Shown piece after piece: positions 28,928 to 43,878 of a stretch of DNA of 64,000 nt. Positions within the stretch are counted from its first letter, which is position 1, and each line of letters opens with the position of its first letter. The position numbers and the translations under genes were made by a program. Below the pieces are notes generated by a model. That model ran no database searches and was not told the DNA's origin. It was given only the letters and a program-made list of their open reading frames with translations. Location of the stretch: the NCBI RefSeq assembly GCF_001440405.1, contig NZ_LLXX01000221.1:340-64339 (forward strand), given 5' to 3'. The stretch is from Bradyrhizobium valentinum (GTDB lineage Bacteria > Pseudomonadota > Alphaproteobacteria > Rhizobiales > Xanthobacteraceae).

Positions 28928-28949
28928 ACATGAGACTGTGCTCTCAAAT

Positions 28950-29053
28950 CGTCGTTCCGGGGCGATGCGAAGCATCGAACTATGGTGCGCAATTGCGCAC
29001 CGGAGAACCTCGAGATTCCGGGTTCGCGTCTTCGACGCGCCCCGGAATGACCG
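28950..29053. repeat. Palindromic repeat family E (TTCCGGGGCGATGCG), copy 1
   Basis: It has the form CGTCGTTCCGGGGCGATGCG ... CGCGCCCCGGAATGACC, with internal GCATCGAACTATGGTGCGC and CTCGAGATTCCGGGTT segments shared with copies at 43775 and 58523. It lies between the acyl-CoA dehydrogenase and the thiolase-like gene and is open in the downstream frame, so the later start of that gene was preferred. Confidence 0.88.
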
Positions 29054-35625: not shown

Positions 35626-37485
35626 CTAGCCTGACGTCAACAGATTCAGCTTGGCGTTGGCGAGGATCAGGCGGTCGGCCAGCAATTGCGCGAGGTTGCG
35701 CATGATGCGCTCGCCGGCGCGTGGATGCTGCTTTCGAAAACGTTCGAAATCGCGGAGCGGGATTTCGTAGGCCGTCGCAGCCATATCGGCCAGCACATCG
35801 GCTGAGCGGCGCGGCTCCAGCAGCGCCATCTCGCCGAACGGCATGCCCGCGGTCAGCGTCGCCAGCCTGATCCCATCGGGCAGGGTGACGTGCACCACGC
35901 CGCTTCTGAGAAAGAACAGCGAAGTGGCGGCGTCGCCGGCGGCGATGATTTTCTCGCTCGCTTGGTAGCTCTTGATGGCGGCGAGTGAGGCCAGATCGGC
36001 CAATTCCTCAACCGTCAGCCCTGACAGCAGCGCCTGTTCGGACAGCTCGGTCGCCTCGAAGAAATCGATCGCGCCGCCATAGCGATAGACCACCTGGTCT
36101 TCCGCCCATTCGATCGCAGCGTCGAGCAAATAGTAGTTGCGGATGTTGGTGAGACCTTCCGTCCAATCCGCGAGCATCTTCCAGTCCGGCGACGACCGCC
36201 TGATGCCGGACAAGATCACGGTGATGTGGTACGCGGCCAACTCGCGGAATTCCTCGGCGAGGAGACGGGCGCCGGCGCGGGTCATGGCGGTGACGCGGCG
36301 CAGGTCGAAAATCACGAGTTGCGGACGCGGCTTGGCTGCGAGCTGGCGCGAGACGTAATCGACGTTGGAAAACGACAGCGTTCCCACCAGCTCGATGATG
36401 CGGACGTCCTGGTGATGGGCGGCGAGGATGCTCTGTTCCTGCGCGCGCCGCACCCGCCGCGACGGGCTGTTGCCGATATCGTAATCGGCGATGATGCTGT
36501 TGCGCGCGTCGTCGCTGCGGTTGAGCATATGCAGGTCGTAATGCGCCGACAGCGCCTCGCAGACCTTGATGCCGCGCACGCTGTTGCCGTGCTTGTCGAG
36601 TTTCGGCGAATAGCTGCCGAGCCCGAGCCGGGCCGGGAGCGCGGCGAGGATGCCGCCGCCAACGCCGCTCTTGGCGGGGATTCCGATCCGGTAGATCCAT
36701 TCCCCGGCGTAATCGTACATGCCGGAACTGGTCATGACGGAAAGCGTACGCGAGATGGCGTAGGCGCTCGTCACCTGTTCGCCGGTCACCGGATTGATGC
36801 CGCGATTGGCGAGGGTGGCCGCCATCACCGCGATGTCGCGTGCCGTCACCAGGATCGCGCATTGCCGGAAATAGACTTCCAGCACGGCAGCCACGTTGTC
36901 CCGGATCACGGCATTGGTGCGCAGGAGATAGCCGATTGCCCGGTTGCGGTCGCCGGTGGTGCTTTCGGAGGCGTAGACGGCGTCGTCGACGTCGAGTTCG
37001 CGTCCGGCAAACCGGCCCAGCGCCTGCCTGATATATTCGAACGCGGCGTCGCCCTTGGCCTCATGGATCAAGCCGGAGCAGGCGATCGCGCCGGCATTCA
37101 CCATGGGGTTGAAGGGATGGTTTTCGGCGTTAAGCCGGATCGAGTTGAAGGGATCGCCCGAGGGCTCGACGCCGATGACGCTTTCGACCCGTGCTGCACC
37201 CAACGTATCGAGCGCCAGCGCGAACACGAAGGGTTTTGACATCGACTGGATGGTGAAGGGGATCTGGGTGTCGCCGACCTCGTAGACATGGCCGTCGAGC
37301 GTGGCGAGGCTGATGCCGAAATGGTCAGGGTCGGCCTTGCCGAGCTCGGGGATGTAATCGGCGACCGCGCCGCTGGTCTCGGGCGCGAATTCCACGTGAC
37401 AGGCGTTCAGGAACCGCAGCAAGGGCGGCTTCGAACTGATCCAGGCTGCGGGACCGGTTGTGACCGGAGGAGGCGATTGTTTCAT
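35626..37485 (-). CDS. glsA: Glutaminase A fused to STAS and cyclic-nucleotide-binding domains
   Basis: 619-residue fusion. Residues about 24-322 are a serine-dependent glutaminase hydrolysing glutamine to glutamate and ammonia, with the SxxK nucleophile pair in IQSMSKPFVF (Ser81, Lys84) and NPMVNAGAI. Residues about 360-465 form a STAS domain (LVIFDLRRVTAMTRAGARLL; the position of the usual phosphorylated Ser is not Ser). Residues about 495-610 form a cNMP-binding domain with an intact FGEMALLEPRRSA phosphate-binding cassette. Typical GlsA ends near 310. A strong GAGGAGGCG site precedes the ATG. It follows a TRAP permease by 22 bases, so it is in that operon; regulation by cAMP or cGMP is inferred. 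Confidence 0.9.
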   Translation of the reverse strand: MKQSPPPVTTGPAAWISSKPPLLRFLNACHVEFAPETSGAVADYIPELGKADPDHFGISLATLDGHVYEVGDTQIPFTIQSMSKPFVFALALDTLGAARVESVIGVEPSGDPFNSIRLNAENHPFNPMVNAGAIACSGLIHEAKGDAAFEYIRQALGRFAGRELDVDDAVYASESTTGDRNRAIGYLLRTNAVIRDNVAAVLEVYFRQCAILVTARDIAVMAATLANRGINPVTGEQVTSAYAISRTLSVMTSSGMYDYAGEWIYRIGIPAKSGVGGGILAALPARLGLGSYSPKLDKHGNSVRGIKVCEALSAHYDLHMLNRSDDARNSIIADYDIGNSPSRRVRRAQEQSILAAHHQDVRIIELVGTLSFSNVDYVSRQLAAKPRPQLVIFDLRRVTAMTRAGARLLAEEFRELAAYHITVILSGIRRSSPDWKMLADWTEGLTNIRNYYLLDAAIEWAEDQVVYRYGGAIDFFEATELSEQALLSGLTVEELADLASLAAIKSYQASEKIIAAGDAATSLFFLRSGVVHVTLPDGIRLATLTAGMPFGEMALLEPRRSADVLADMAATAYEIPLRDFERFRKQHPRAGERIMRNLAQLLADRLILANAKLNLLTSG

Positions 37486-37507
37486 CGCCTCCTCTTGTGC
37501 AACGCAA

Positions 37508-39580
37508 TCAGGGTGCGTGCAACTGGTTCGCTGCCGGCGCCTGCCGCCGGATCAGCACCAGCGCGAGCAGTGTGGTGGGTACGAGAATGGCGAGACCGAG
37601 CATTGTCACCTGCATCTGCGACAGCGGCATGATCCCTCCGCCGGGCGTGGCCACCACGAACCCGCCGATGACGAGCAATACGCGCAACGGCCATTCCAGC
37701 GTGCCGGTGCGCCGGAGGTCGCCGACAAAGACCTGGTAGCCCTGAATGCCGCCGCAGATGAACAGCGTGCCGAAGCCCGCCAGCGCCATCAGTCCGATTC
37801 CTTCCAGATACGGGCTTGGTCCCTGCAGCACCAGCGCCGGGTTCAGCACGAAGAAGAACGGAATGAAGTAAATGATGCTGCCGACCCACATCGATTCCCA
37901 GCCGGTCTTCATCGCCGGTGAGCCGGCGATGCCGGCTGCGGCGAAGGAGGCGATGGCAACCGGAGGCGTGATCGACGACAGCATGCCCCAGTAGAAGATG
38001 AACATGTGCACGGCCATGCGATTGAGGCCGAGCTTCTCCAGCGCGGGCGCCACCAGGATGGCGAGGAAGATGTAGCAGGCCGTCGTCGTCAGTCCGAGCC
38101 CGAGAACGAGGCTGGTAAAGGCACACATCACAAGCAGCAGCAACGCATTGTCGCCGGCGAGCCGCAGCAGGTCGTTGGCGAGACTGGAAACCACGCCGGT
38201 CATCGAGAACGCGCCGATCAGGAGGCCGCAGCCGGCGAGGATGCCGACCAGTTCGACGAAGGTGCGGCCGTTGACCTCGAGGAACTTGTTGATGGTCCCG
38301 AGCGTCCAGCGCGTGTCCTTGGAGAAGAGTTGGTTCAAGACCAGCAGCAGCGCGGTCGCGTAGAACGGCGCGTGGCTCTCACGCTTGAAATGCAGCAGCA
38401 TCACGATCAACAGCGCGATGACGAAAATGTAGTACCAGCCGGCCTTGACCGTATCCCAGATCTTCGGCAGCTCGGCGCGCGGAATGCCCTTTAGCCCGTG
38501 GCGGGCGGCATAAGAATCGACCTGCATGAACAGGCCAATGTAATAGAGCGTGGCCGGAATAATCGCGGCAACGGCGACTTCCGCGTAACTGACGTTGAGG
38601 AACTGCGCGATCACGAATGCGGTCGCGCCCATCACCGGCGGCGCCAGCACTGCGCCGGTCGATGCGCAGGCCTCGATCGCGGCAGAATAGGAGGCACGAA
38701 AACCGCTCTTCTTCATGACGGGAATGGTCATGGTGCCGGCGGTCAGCACGTTGGAGATGATCGAACCTGACATCATGCCGAGCAGGCCAGAGGCAAAGAT
38801 GCAAACCTTTGCGGCGCCACCGCGGAAGGTACCGCACAGCGCAAAGGCGATGTTGATGAAGAATTTTCCCGCGCCCGTCATCATCAACGCGGTGCCGAAG
38901 ACCAGAAAGCCGATCACGGTATCGGCGAAGGCCTGGATCGGAATGCCAAGCAGGCTTTCGCCCGACAGGACGTGATAAGCCGTCGCCTGCTCAAGCGTCG
39001 ATTCGGTGCCACGAAACGGCCCCAACCACTTCGCGTCGGCGAACAGGGGGTAGACCGTAAACGGCAGCACGCTGAGCAGCAGGCTCCAGCCCCCGGTGCG
39101 CCGCAGCGCCTCCATCAGCACCACCCACATGATAACGCCGGCGATGATAACATTGGTTGGCGCGCCGCCGAATTCCCAGCCGGCTTCAGCGGCCTTGCGG
39201 ACGCTTAGCATCAACAGGAGGGCGCAACCGAAGGTGGCGATGAAGAGCAGTATGTCGTACCAGGGAATGCGATCGAGCGGCGAGGTCTCGGTTCCCGGAA
39301 AGATCAGGAACGTGAACGGCAGCATCAGCGCGATGAGGAGATAGAAATATTCAGTGTTGAGCTGGGTATAGCCGAGAAAGAAGCGCAGTGAGAATTGCTG
39401 GTTGATACACAGGAGGATGGTTGCCGCGGTGGCAACCACGAGCGCCCAGCGCCACGCGCCGCGCAAGGTCCGTACGCGCGTGACCTCGGCCTCCTGCATA
39501 TTGCCCGCGCCGGCATGCGGATCGTCGAATTCGATCCGCTTTGCCGGCGCGACTACGCTATCACTCGCAGAAGGTGACAT
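37508..39580 (-). CDS. TRAP transporter fused small/large permease (DctQM type)
   Basis: 690-residue, strongly hydrophobic permease in which the 4-helix DctQ-like and 12-helix DctM-like parts are joined, as usual for TAXI-class TRAP systems. Signature segments include GLLGMMSGSIISNVLTAGTM and FYWGMLSSITPPVAIASFAA. An in-frame TTG upstream overlaps the ribosome-binding site (GGGGGAA); two consecutive ATGs follow and the second was chosen for spacing. It lies between the TAXI binding protein and the glutaminase fusion, all on one strand. Transport is sodium- or proton-driven. Confidence 0.9.
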   Translation of the reverse strand: MSPSASDSVVAPAKRIEFDDPHAGAGNMQEAEVTRVRTLRGAWRWALVVATAATILLCINQQFSLRFFLGYTQLNTEYFYLLIALMLPFTFLIFPGTETSPLDRIPWYDILLFIATFGCALLLMLSVRKAAEAGWEFGGAPTNVIIAGVIMWVVLMEALRRTGGWSLLLSVLPFTVYPLFADAKWLGPFRGTESTLEQATAYHVLSGESLLGIPIQAFADTVIGFLVFGTALMMTGAGKFFINIAFALCGTFRGGAAKVCIFASGLLGMMSGSIISNVLTAGTMTIPVMKKSGFRASYSAAIEACASTGAVLAPPVMGATAFVIAQFLNVSYAEVAVAAIIPATLYYIGLFMQVDSYAARHGLKGIPRAELPKIWDTVKAGWYYIFVIALLIVMLLHFKRESHAPFYATALLLVLNQLFSKDTRWTLGTINKFLEVNGRTFVELVGILAGCGLLIGAFSMTGVVSSLANDLLRLAGDNALLLLVMCAFTSLVLGLGLTTTACYIFLAILVAPALEKLGLNRMAVHMFIFYWGMLSSITPPVAIASFAAAGIAGSPAMKTGWESMWVGSIIYFIPFFFVLNPALVLQGPSPYLEGIGLMALAGFGTLFICGGIQGYQVFVGDLRRTGTLEWPLRVLLVIGGFVVATPGGGIMPLSQMQVTMLGLAILVPTTLLALVLIRRQAPAANQLHAP

Positions 39581-39632
39581 CATTTCCCCCAAAGATGGTA
39601 TTCGCCTTCTACCGAGGTCGGAAGAGGCCGTA

Positions 39633-40796
39633 TCACTCGAAGCCGTTCGGCATATTGGCCTTTGCCAGCGCTTCAGCGCGTGCCTTCATCCAACCGTCGA
39701 GAAACGCCTTGTCATCCGAAGGCGGGTTGGCCTTGCCATAACCGGCCCATGCTGCCGCCAGCACTTGCTGGCGTTTCAGCAATTCCTTGTTATGGGCTTC
39801 CTGCGCGTCGGTCCACTGGCCGGCTTCCTTTAATGCCTTCGCGGCGCCCGGATGCACTGGAACCACCCAGTTCTTGGTCTGCCGGTCGGCCCCGAGGCCC
39901 GCGGCTCCTGGAGCGGCATCCTTGTAGCCGTCATAGCCCGTGATCATCGCCTTGGTGATGGAATAGACCTCGTCGACGGGCAGCGATCCATAGACCATGA
40001 AGATCGGGTAGGGGTAGTTGCCAAGCTCGATCGGCTTGTCCTTGGAGATACCGGCGCCGCAGGTCGCCATATGTGGGAAGAAGAACGAGCCGACCTTCTT
40101 CACGCGCTCCCAGCCGGCCTTGTCGTTGTGGGGTAGCGGCGGCCAGATGATGCCGCGCGGCGAGGTCTCGAGTTCCTTCGCCGGGCCAGTGATGGTGGTA
40201 GCGAAGGCAGCATCGACGTCGTTGTTAATCATGCCCTTCCACATCGCGCCATAGCTCGAGAACTCGACGGCCTTGACGTCGCTCTGCTTGAGATCGCCGA
40301 AGGCCAGGATGGCGAGCGCGTTCTGGTTCAGCGCCGGCGAACCGACGACGAAGCCGACGCGCTTGCCTTTGAGGTGCTTGATTTCGGTTACGCCGGTATC
40401 CTTGGCGACACCGAGCGTGGCGGCGTTGCAGTCGACCGTGGACAGAACGAGTTGCAGGGGTTGAGGACCCCACTCCTTGGAGCCGAATTCGAACACGCCT
40501 TCCTGGGCGAAATAGGTGCCGGAGCCCATCGCTGACATGGACGCGCGCTTGGCGCGCAGCGGCGCCAGCCGCGCCACGTCGTTGCCGGCGGGCAGCACGC
40601 GGACGTCGGTGCCGTATTTGTCTTTCATCACCTTGCCGACGGCGACCGCGATGTTGAATCCGGCGGTGCCGGTGTCGTAGGCGGTGAACGTCATGGTCGG
40701 CGGCAGCTTGACGTCCTCGGCGTATGCCGCCGGCGAGGTCAGCAGTGCGGCGCCTGCTAGGGCGATTGGCGCGAACGCCTTCATCCGATGAATCAT
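39633..40796 (-). CDS. TAXI family TRAP transporter solute-binding protein
   Basis: 387-residue periplasmic binding protein. It has a Sec signal peptide (MIHRMKAFAPIALAGAALL with cleavage after AYA) and the TAXI fold start TMTFTAYDTGTAGFNIAVAV. GAGGGGAAAATA precedes the ATG. TAXI proteins with known ligands include glutamate/glutamine binders, so with a glutaminase two genes downstream a glutamine or glutamate ligand is an attractive inference. The ligand is not proven by sequence. It delivers to the fused permease gene that follows after about 50 bases. Confidence 0.9.
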   Translation of the reverse strand: MIHRMKAFAPIALAGAALLTSPAAYAEDVKLPPTMTFTAYDTGTAGFNIAVAVGKVMKDKYGTDVRVLPAGNDVARLAPLRAKRASMSAMGSGTYFAQEGVFEFGSKEWGPQPLQLVLSTVDCNAATLGVAKDTGVTEIKHLKGKRVGFVVGSPALNQNALAILAFGDLKQSDVKAVEFSSYGAMWKGMINNDVDAAFATTITGPAKELETSPRGIIWPPLPHNDKAGWERVKKVGSFFFPHMATCGAGISKDKPIELGNYPYPIFMVYGSLPVDEVYSITKAMITGYDGYKDAAPGAAGLGADRQTKNWVVPVHPGAAKALKEAGQWTDAQEAHNKELLKRQQVLAAAWAGYGKANPPSDDKAFLDGWMKARAEALAKANMPNGFE

Positions 40797-40814
40797 TATT
40801 TTCCCCTCAGATTG

Positions 40815-40829
40815 TTTCGCTATGCGAAA
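40815..40829. promoter_or_regulatory. Palindromic operator upstream of the TAXI-TRAP-glsA operon
   Basis: TTTCGCTATGCGAAA is a perfect 6-3-6 palindrome starting 19 bases upstream of the TAXI start codon, a position suited to repressing or activating that operon. Regulators of the IclR family often bind short palindromes of this kind, and an IclR gene lies 470 bases away. Confidence 0.6.
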
Positions 40830-40947
40830 TTTTCTCGTTGATCATGTCATCGGCTGCTTGCGATGGCAACGTTGGGTATACACCAACACCAGAGCTGGAC
40901 AGATTGTCGCGGAATTTCGCCGCGAGCAAATCTATGCCGTGATCCGG

Positions 40948-41169
40948 TTAAGCTTCGATGATCGCGACGACCTGTCCTTCGGCGATGACATCGTCGAGTT
41001 TGACCAGGATGGCTTTGATTTTTCCCGCCGTCGTCGACATGACCGGAATTTCCATCTTCATGGCTTCGACGAAGGCGATCTCGTCGCCGTCGTCGACATC
41101 TCCGCCAGTTGTGACGGGAAGCGCGCACACGCGGCCGGCGACGTCGGTGACAATCTTGATCTCTGGCAT
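40948..41169 (-). CDS. Biotin carboxyl carrier domain protein
   Basis: 73-residue biotinyl carrier. The biotin-accepting lysine is in VEAMKMEIPVMS, the canonical AMKM sequence. It forms a whole biotinyl/lipoyl domain with no extra domain, so it must work with separate carboxylase and transferase subunits. A carboxyltransferase gene lies on the other side of the divergent IclR gene. No biotin carboxylase gene is in the window. A GGGAGAACGGAA site precedes the ATG. Confidence 0.9.
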   Translation of the reverse strand: MPEIKIVTDVAGRVCALPVTTGGDVDDGDEIAFVEAMKMEIPVMSTTAGKIKAILVKLDDVIAEGQVVAIIEA

Positions 41170-41265
41170 TTCCGTTCTCCCGGGGACCGTCTGACGGACT
41201 GACTGTCCTCGTGAACGGCTTTTTGTTGTGGCCGCAGATTGCCTGAGGTAGTTTGTTCTGCAAGT

Positions 41266-41278
41266 GGAATTTTATTCC
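41266..41278. promoter_or_regulatory. Candidate IclR operator between carrier gene and iclR
   Basis: GGAATTTTATTCC is a perfect 5-3-5 palindrome 19 bases before the IclR start, with another GGAAT half-site at 41286-41290. Its form resembles IclR-type sites (TGGAAAT...TTTCCA). It lies between divergent genes and could serve autoregulation and control of the carrier gene. Confidence 0.58.
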
Positions 41279-41296
41279 GCAGGGCGGAATGGAGCC

Positions 41297-42280
41297 ATGA
41301 ACATGGGAAGACGCTCGGAACGGCTAAGCAAACAGGGAATGCTCGCCAGCGATCTGGCCGGCGAGGGTGATGTGATCCAGGTGGTGTCGCGGGCGTTCGA
41401 CGTCTTGCGCTGCTTCGAGGGTCACGAAGCCAGGCTAGGCAATCTGGAAATTTCCAGTCGCTGCGGCCTGCCGCGATCGACAGTATCGCGGCTTACCCAC
41501 ACGCTGACGCGGATGGGCCAGCTCGTCTATCTGCCGCGCGACCAGAAATACCGCATCGGCCCGAGCGCAGTGGCGATGAGCACCTCGATGATGAAGGGGT
41601 TGCAGCTTCGCAACCTGATCCGGTTGCGGCTACAGGATGTCGCCGACCAATTGCCCGGCACCGTCGGCTTCGTGATTCCCGACCGCTATCATCTGGTCTA
41701 TCTCGAATTTGCGCGTGCAGCCAACGCGCTCGGCCTGCATGAAGGCACCGGCAGCCGCATCTCGATGACCAGCACCGCGGCCGGCTTTGCCTACACCGCA
41801 GCGCTCGATACCGACGTCGGCGACGCCCTGATCGCCGAAATGGAGCGTGAGATCCCGGGAGATGCGGCGCTGTTGAAGTCACGCATCGAGGACAACCGCC
41901 GCCACTTGCGCGAACACGGCTACGTCGTCGGCTGTGGCACCTGGAGCCCGCATATCAACGGTTGCGCGGTGCCGATCTGGTCGCCGCAATATCAAACCTT
42001 CGTAGTTGCGACGATCGGCCTTCTCTCCGCGATGTTTGATGAGAAGCGGTTGCACAAGGAAGTGGCGCCGCAGATGCTCGAACTCGGCGTTGCGCTTGGC
42101 GGCCTGCTCGAAGGCGCCGAGGGCGACATCTTCCCGAGCCGCATCGAACGAAAGCCGCTTCCGGTGCCGACCCATAACAACAACAAGATCATCAAGACGG
42201 AGGATACGAATGAACTGGAAGCCGGAGCTCGACGAGCTCGCTCGGCGCGAAGCGTTCGCGCGCGAGATGGGAGGCGTTGA
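41297..42280 (+). CDS. IclR family transcriptional regulator
   Basis: 327-residue regulator with a winged helix-turn-helix (about 30-95, including GNLEISSRCGLPRSTVSRLT) and a C-terminal IclR effector domain ending around VALGGLLEGA. The start is the ATG in GGAGCCATGAACATG. The last roughly 25 residues, rich in Arg and Ala (for example ARRARSARSVRARDGRR), are encoded in a different frame over the start of the carboxyltransferase gene. This is a 71-base overlap that gives the tail an unnatural composition. It is likely the local regulator of the carboxyltransferase, carrier and TRAP genes. Confidence 0.88.
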   Translation: MNMGRRSERLSKQGMLASDLAGEGDVIQVVSRAFDVLRCFEGHEARLGNLEISSRCGLPRSTVSRLTHTLTRMGQLVYLPRDQKYRIGPSAVAMSTSMMKGLQLRNLIRLRLQDVADQLPGTVGFVIPDRYHLVYLEFARAANALGLHEGTGSRISMTSTAAGFAYTAALDTDVGDALIAEMEREIPGDAALLKSRIEDNRRHLREHGYVVGCGTWSPHINGCAVPIWSPQYQTFVVATIGLLSAMFDEKRLHKEVAPQMLELGVALGGLLEGAEGDIFPSRIERKPLPVPTHNNNKIIKTEDTNELEAGARRARSARSVRARDGRR

Positions 42281-43774: not shown

Positions 43775-43878
43775 TGTCATTCCGGGGCGATGCGCAGCAT
43801 CGAACTATGGTGCGCAATTGCGCACCTGAGAATCTCGAGATTCCGGGTCTGGTGCTAACGCACCATCCCGGAATGACG
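43775..43878. repeat. Palindromic repeat family E, copy 2
   Basis: It begins TGTCATTCCGGGGCGATGCG and ends ATCCCGGAATGACGTG. It shares GCATCGAACTATGGTGCGC and CTCGAGATTCCGGGTC with the copy at 28950. It fills the gap between the convergent carboxyltransferase and MFS genes and could form a terminator-like hairpin. Confidence 0.88.

Follow-up and report, generated by a model that had tools for sequence, protein, structure and literature searches.

Glutaminases that carry a further region behind the catalytic domain have been described from bacteria and mammals. The closest are the salt-tolerant Mglu of Micrococcus (3agd, 3if5) and, from the same catalytic family, mammalian KGA/GLS (e.g. PDB 5uqe), whose C-terminal addition consists of ankyrin repeats. 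Mycobacterial acetyltransferases (Pat) are known to have a fused cyclic nucleotide-binding (cNMP) domain; MtKat Rv0998 and MsKat MSMEG_5458 are directly activated by cyclic AMP (cAMP), as described in PMC5861322. Among TRAP transporters with a TAXI-family binding protein, VcGluP of Vibrio cholerae (PDB 8S4J) was reported to bind glutamate and, more weakly, glutamine (PMC11574862). Here we analyze glsA, a gene in a stretch of 64,000 nucleotides from Bradyrhizobium valentinum (contig NZ_LLXX01000221.1, positions 340 to 64,339; the window), which encodes a glutaminase fused to STAS and cNMP domains and lies downstream of TAXI-TRAP genes. The fusion does not depend on this transporter, and its activity may be gated by a cyclic nucleotide.

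A glutaminase fused to STAS and cNMP domains

The fusion is encoded by a single uninterrupted frame of 619 codons (35626-37485, minus strand). All three Pfam domains exceed their curated cut-offs: the glutaminase domain PF04960 scores 377.9 bits against 27, PF01740 (STAS) 37.9 against 22.6, and PF00027 (cNMP_binding) 59.7 against 27.5. The TIGR03814 glutaminase A equivalog is also exceeded (335.9 against 255.4), while the cut-off of the NF002134 glutaminase equivalog is not reached (428.1 vs 557 bits). A Pfam scan of the protein gave no match to ankyrin repeats. This domain search, the check proposed in a first-pass annotation of the window, bore out its description of a 619-residue glutaminase that runs on into STAS and cNMP domains. 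The annotation had placed the STAS domain at about residues 360-465. The domain itself was found, but its span was not, as the profile match stops near 430 and the structure model has fair confidence to about 470. An intact FGEMALL...R cassette had also been read from the sequence, and its residues are indeed in place and conserved (residues 550-562, FGEMALLEPRRSA).

Read-through or a chance frame was considered as the source of the extra domains and was ruled out since the architecture recurs at 80 loci, in a paralogue, and in other families. The full-length protein is found at 80 orthologous Bradyrhizobium-type loci (the best 80 of 384), with the closest orthologue, also from Bradyrhizobium, 96% identical. 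The window's own genome holds a second fused copy, 60% identical and located beside an MFS gene, as well as one short glutaminase. We presume that the glutaminase-STAS-cNMP architecture is listed in domain databases. A literature search confined to open-licence papers found no paper on a glutaminase-cNMP fusion, and glutaminase does not appear in the main text of a study of how cyclic-nucleotide domains evolved (PMC2246266).

The best solved sequence matches of the glutaminase domain are Micrococcus Mglu (3agd), followed by the human glutaminases. Positions that we take to form the active site, the Ser-Lys pair and substrate residues of human GLS, were placed by alignment. All are present in the window protein, as Y44, S81, K84, N130, E174, N181, Y205, Y257, and V275. 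Eight of the nine are invariant in 100/100 aligned rows and N130 is found in 99/100; these rows are the full 104 minus L133, L136, L147, and L150, with the ankyrin-type L130 still included. Because the active-site residues are intact and conserved, the window protein should, judging by its sequence, be a catalytically complete glutaminase that converts glutamine to glutamate and ammonia. The structure model adds little here. The whole fusion has a predicted local distance difference test (pLDDT) value of 66, the glutaminase part is poor, and the Foldseek rows for this part have a root-mean-square deviation (rmsd) near 15.

To place the fusion in a wider context, genomes of the class, order, and phylum were searched in three overlapping samples, in which PF04960 matched 30/240, 81/249, and 72/299 genomes, respectively. 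All glutaminase frames of at least 580 amino acids were fetched along with some shorter ones. Outside the genus, 11 of the fetched genes are glutaminase-STAS-cNMP fusions (L132-L139, L145, L148, and L151), with L151 coming from another class. Pfam detects the glutaminase domain in all 11 and the cNMP domain over cut-off in nine. STAS exceeds its cut-off in eight, lies exactly at it in L137 and just under it in L151, and is not matched in L145. The two fusions with cNMP domains below the Pfam cut-off, L133:4943-6703 (-) and L136:7041-9053 (-), come from two genomes of one genus and lose their frame at about the same cNMP position; real decay, a programmed event, and sequencing error are all candidates. 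In a tree of the catalytic domain the fused forms cluster, with three label changes, and a single clade is not rejected (approximately unbiased test, p-AU 0.282). None of 202 plasmid records covers 80% of the fusion protein; the best matches, from Embleya (43% identity) and Acinetobacter (38%), extend over residues 16-418 or 16-425.

A few other glutaminases came to light in these samples. L148 (G008:C22) belongs to a 1.4-Mb alphaproteobacterial genome, 93% complete, that retains the full fusion downstream of a YbfB-type MFS gene, which is odd for a genome of such small size. Two alphaproteobacterial glutaminases of 705 and 759 amino acids (L147:7334-9448 (-) and L150:7255-9531 (-)) have EF-hand_14 ahead of the catalytic domain and ankyrin repeats behind it according to Pfam, a layout that we take to be that of mammalian kidney glutaminase. 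Finally, two same-genus genomes carry a glutaminase gene that is divided between frames or interrupted by a stop codon (G408:C104:58742-59588 and G349:C93:56498-56962). These are probably decayed extra copies.

The TAXI-TRAP genes as an optional cassette

The genes upstream of glsA encode a TAXI-type TRAP transporter, as both the TAXI binding protein and the fused permease score over their cut-offs (Table 1). Their arrangement agrees with the first-pass annotation, which had glsA starting 22 bases past the permease gene, downstream of the TAXI gene and on the same strand. The purine-rich AAGAGGAGG ends 2 bases ahead of the glsA ATG, which is close for a ribosome-binding site. No terminator-like site was found on the minus strand between the TRAP permease and glsA, and a promoter scan gave 1 site against 1.4 expected.

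Table 1. Features of the glsA region, in window coordinates
Feature	Coordinates	Strand	Basis
Glutaminase-STAS-cNMP fusion gene (619 aa)	35626..37485	-	open frame, Pfam/NCBIfam profiles, homologous loci (n=80)
Glutaminase catalytic domain, residues 39-320	36526..37371	-	PF04960, E 3.8e-113
STAS domain, residues 354-430 by profile	36196..36426	-	PF01740, E 1.6e-9
Cyclic-nucleotide-binding domain, residues 505-587	35725..35973	-	PF00027, E 2.8e-16
Phosphate-binding cassette, F550-G551-E552 ... R560-S561-A562	35800..35838	-	alignment conservation
Gap from TRAP stop to glsA ATG, 22 bases	37486..37507	-	contains purine-rich AAGAGGAGG
TRAP transporter fused permease	37508..39592	-	TIGR02123, 657.2 bits vs 320.65; PF06808
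TAXI-family TRAP solute-binding protein	39633..40796	-	TIGR02122, 259 bits vs 84.35
IclR-TAXI intergenic region	40797..41263	.	IclR-side stretches match TRAP-less loci, there in front of glsA
Divergent IclR-type regulator	41264..42280	+	PF09339/PF01614; present at 75/80 loci with or without TAXI-TRAP

At 51 of the 80 loci, TRAP lies directly upstream of glsA on the same strand, with an aligned gap of 15-118 bases. It is 1.8 and 5.4 kb away at two others, and one locus could not be assigned. The remaining 26 loci are TRAP-less, with the IclR gene directly divergent from glsA. Five of six further same-genus orthologues have TAXI-TRAP (L157 does not), and three paralogues are without it. Neither TAXI nor TRAP was seen near any of the 11 outside-genus fusions in stretches of 14-19 kb (6.4 kb for L148). 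A genome search covering 23 of the 26 TRAP-less loci (all except L052, L074, and L089) found no close TAXI elsewhere; the best match was 24-27% identical in 18 genomes and absent in 5. The association of the fusion with TAXI-TRAP, which the first-pass annotation had proposed to survey, is thus common within the genus (51/80) and is missing at 26/80 loci and from 11/11 fusions outside it. Possession of the fusion is independent of the transporter.

The edges of the TAXI-TRAP genes are preserved where the genes themselves are missing. In all 26 TRAP-less loci, 217-395 bp on the IclR side of the intergenic region match the TRAP-bearing loci at 75-95% identity. Likewise, 35-93 bases around the glsA start are common to TRAP-bearing loci and 24 of the 26 TRAP-less loci (not L074 and L100), and in the loci inspected this stretch holds the apparent last few TRAP codons. 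Since both flanks are shared, the genes are bordered by glsA on one side and a conserved promoter-side region on the other. On an 84-row tree, the TRAP label changes 9 times by parsimony, with 4 to 6 changes forced by well-supported branches. By these sequence comparisons, gain or loss of TAXI-TRAP as a cassette has occurred repeatedly between glsA and the promoter region on the IclR side. The apparent TRAP-codon remnants at the glsA start and the several label changes favor repeated loss; the direction is not proven.

The likely substrate of the transporter was examined through the residues that bind glutamate in VcGluP. Affinity for glutamate was reported to fall 213-fold in Y45A, 14-fold in S75A, and 990-fold in Q93A (PMC11574862). 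In the window TAXI protein, D73 aligns to S75, M90 to Q93, and G46 to Y32 of TtGluBP, which was taken as the counterpart of Y45 because VcGluP residue 45 falls outside the aligned piece. The glutamate-specific residues Y45, S75, and Q93 were thus not found in the window protein, in an alignment that is 18-22% identical and not final. All 31 TAXI rows of the alignment, made up of the window and 30 copies taken from 29 loci, carry G46, D73, and M90. We treat this loss as evidence rather than proof because of the low identity and because Y45 and Q93 vary across the TAXI set of the VcGluP authors, in which they occur in 78% and 54%, respectively (PMC11574862).

With an E-value limit of 1e-30, relatives of the TAXI protein were detected in 44 of 385 genomes of the class, and 42 of the 44 lie outside the genus. 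Stretches of 4.7-17 kb were fetched for 20 of the outside-genus genomes (best matches 47-67% identical) and contained no glutaminase near the TAXI gene (0/20). Alignment of 27 TAXI rows, the window and 26 from the relatives' loci, shows G46 in all 27 and D73 in 26; at position 90 these rows have N, M, T, or C, but no Q. Neighbors of these relatives, chosen by eye for scanning, include CoA-transferase III, HMGL-like, acyl-CoA dehydrogenase, class II aldolase, BKACE, and hydantoinase/oxoprolinase genes. Judged by residues and neighbors, the most likely cargo of the transporter is an organic acid broken down as a CoA ester rather than glutamine or glutamate.

At four of the loci (L195, L196, L197, and L076), two or three tandem TAXI genes precede a single TRAP permease, which suggests that one permease is served by several TAXI binding proteins there. 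In the window, the neighboring genes encode the IclR regulator, a carboxyltransferase, a thiolase, and a CMD-family protein. A 43-base repeat is present in two copies (28959-29001 and 43784-43826), with none expected by chance. The thiolase frame at 28938 was given a long start that overlaps one of the copies; the true thiolase start is probably later.

The C-terminal domains and their proposed role

Gly-Glu ... Arg is the motif of the phosphate-binding cassette of cyclic-nucleotide domains. The residues G551, E552, R560, and A562 are conserved in 81/81 near rows (the window and the 80 loci, 78-96% identical) and in 9/9 further same-genus or paralogue rows, from which L130 was set aside and among which L158 and L160 duplicate the near rows L023 and L078. 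They are also conserved in 9/9 intact fusions from six other families. As the cNMP domains of these are 30-36% identical, it is the other-family fusions that carry the weight of the evidence. Because the cassette is kept in all nine, control of the fusion by a cyclic-nucleotide ligand is credible on sequence grounds. Residues 477-616 of the model align structurally with cAMP-bound GlxR and Clr at Z 18, with rmsd values of 2.1 and 1.7, respectively. A search of the same genome gave 40 matches to class III cyclases over cut-off; a cyclic-nucleotide ligand is, therefore, likely available.

The STAS domain gives a different picture. In SpoIIAA-type STAS proteins, a serine in a D-S-S-G-like loop is phosphorylated. 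This serine was not found in the window protein or its near relatives, where the position is alanine (A404 in 81/81 near rows); nine distant rows have 5 Ala, 2 Gly, and 2 Ser in a low-identity alignment. With alanine at the phosphorylated position, a STAS phospho-switch appears unlikely.

From the domains, the intact and conserved catalytic and phosphate-binding residues, the genome context, and the presence or absence of the cassette, we infer how the protein may bind its ligand and be regulated. A cyclic nucleotide, cAMP or another, would bind the C-terminal cNMP domain and set the activity of the glutaminase. The signal would pass through the STAS domain to the catalytic domain, most likely through a change in oligomeric state or in how the catalytic domains pack, and the STAS domain would probably be a spacer or oligomer contact, not a phospho-switch. 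The enzyme would act independently of the transporter. Where the TAXI-TRAP cassette is present, it is probably co-transcribed with glsA, since it sits between the IclR-side promoter region and glsA. On balance, we lean towards a transporter-independent glutaminase that is gated by a cyclic nucleotide, be it cAMP or another, and that lies beside an optional importer of what is probably an organic acid. We consider the evidence about evenly poised on whether such glutaminases in Bradyrhizobium and other proteobacteria are switched directly by cAMP (or cGMP/cUMP) via the STAS-cNMP arm. If true, this would link cyclic-nucleotide signaling to glutamine and ammonia metabolism, add a cyclic-nucleotide target beyond transcription factors, and provide a path by which carbon or stress signals could reach the glutamine pool read by nitrogen regulation. 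A working cNMP domain would mean direct second-messenger control of glutamine hydrolysis in relatives of nitrogen-fixing symbionts.

Several observations weigh against this proposal. The support for gating comes from sequence and model, and the effects on binding and activity are predictions. The fold match does not discriminate, as plant GORK channels (Z 17.8) and FNR (Z 16.7) match almost equally well, and the fold by itself is therefore a poor guide to the ligand. The STAS domain is poorly conserved, with 20-27% identity to distant fusions. Two of the 11 outside-genus fusions (L133 and L136) have frames broken inside the cNMP domain; cNMP control may be dispensable there or the sequences may be wrong. 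In the catalytic-domain tree, which has long branches, the unfused L125 (a glutaminase domain alone by Pfam) and L127 nest within the fused group. The close TRAP-glsA spacing kept at 51/80 loci would also be explained by a functional link. On the transporter side, the TAXI alignment is distant (18% identical to VcGluP and 22% to TtGluBP), the TAXI structure model is poor (pLDDT 41), and the hydantoinase/oxoprolinase beside TAXI at L200 would fit a glutamate- or pyroglutamate-like substrate at that locus.

Another possible explanation, which we regard as unlikely but worth keeping in view, is that the STAS and cNMP domains are purely structural, serving oligomerization or stability, and that cyclic-nucleotide binding has been lost. 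Low STAS conservation, the missing phosphorylatable-serine pattern, the two broken cNMP frames, and the equally ranked fold matches to FNR and GORK are all consistent with this, and some proteins of these types bind no cyclic nucleotide. However, a domain with a structural role only would have no need of the GE...R-x-A cassette, and the nine intact other-family fusions, 30-36% identical in this domain, all keep it.

We find it improbable that TAXI-TRAP imports glutamine or glutamate for processing by the fused glutaminase, with a cyclic nucleotide tuning the coupling. The nutrient-import and hydrolysis unit of the first-pass annotation was of this kind. It could draw on the shared strand, the 22-base gap free of same-strand terminator-like sites, and the 51/80 loci with TRAP directly upstream. 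MFS transporter genes adjoin the paralogue and the distant L148 fusion, and an amino-acid permease is encoded about 3 kb from the L137 fusion. VcGluP, also a TAXI protein, was reported to bind glutamate and more weakly glutamine (PMC11574862). However, the transporter is missing at 26/80 loci and from 11/11 outside-genus fusions, the 23 searched genomes of TRAP-less loci lack a close TAXI elsewhere, the key VcGluP positions are replaced by G46, D73, and M90 in all 31 TAXI rows, and the 20 loci of TAXI relatives are without a glutaminase. On these grounds the import unit is not supported, and an obligate glutamine-import operon was rejected as unsupported. Least probable is hydrolysis of an amide related to the TRAP substrate instead of glutamine, which would suit the acyl-CoA/aromatic-type catabolism neighborhood (thiolase, carboxyltransferase, CMD family, and IclR) but not the intact glutaminase catalytic positions, the glutaminase A equivalog score (335.9 vs 255.4), or the persistence of the fusion without TRAP.

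Comparison with known systems

The preferred reading, a glutaminase gated by a cyclic nucleotide, was compared to the systems named at the outset. The window transporter shares the TAXI family with VcGluP, but the glutamate-binding residues of VcGluP are not retained in an alignment that is 18% identical. KGA/GLS, of the same catalytic family, also has an added C-terminal region, with ankyrin repeats where the window protein has STAS and cNMP domains instead. Mycobacterial Pat shows that a bacterial enzyme can be under direct cyclic-nucleotide control, although it is a different enzyme from the window glutaminase. Its cNMP domain is N-terminal and it has no STAS domain, and the NCBIfam profile ActPatMycb56 gives a weak match to the window cNMP region (21 bits, cut-off 460).

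Mglu gave the top Foldseek rows for the fusion model, with 427-478 aligned columns and an rmsd of about 15 where the model is poor. Like the window protein, it has a glutaminase domain followed by a further C-terminal region, which may be STAS-like according to a weak match. The NF002134 glutaminases (429 positions) are comparable, as their profile aligns to residues 21-434 of the window protein. Unlike the window protein, neither Mglu nor NF002134 has a cNMP domain. The cNMP addition is a new element on the known combination of a glutaminase and a further C-terminal region.

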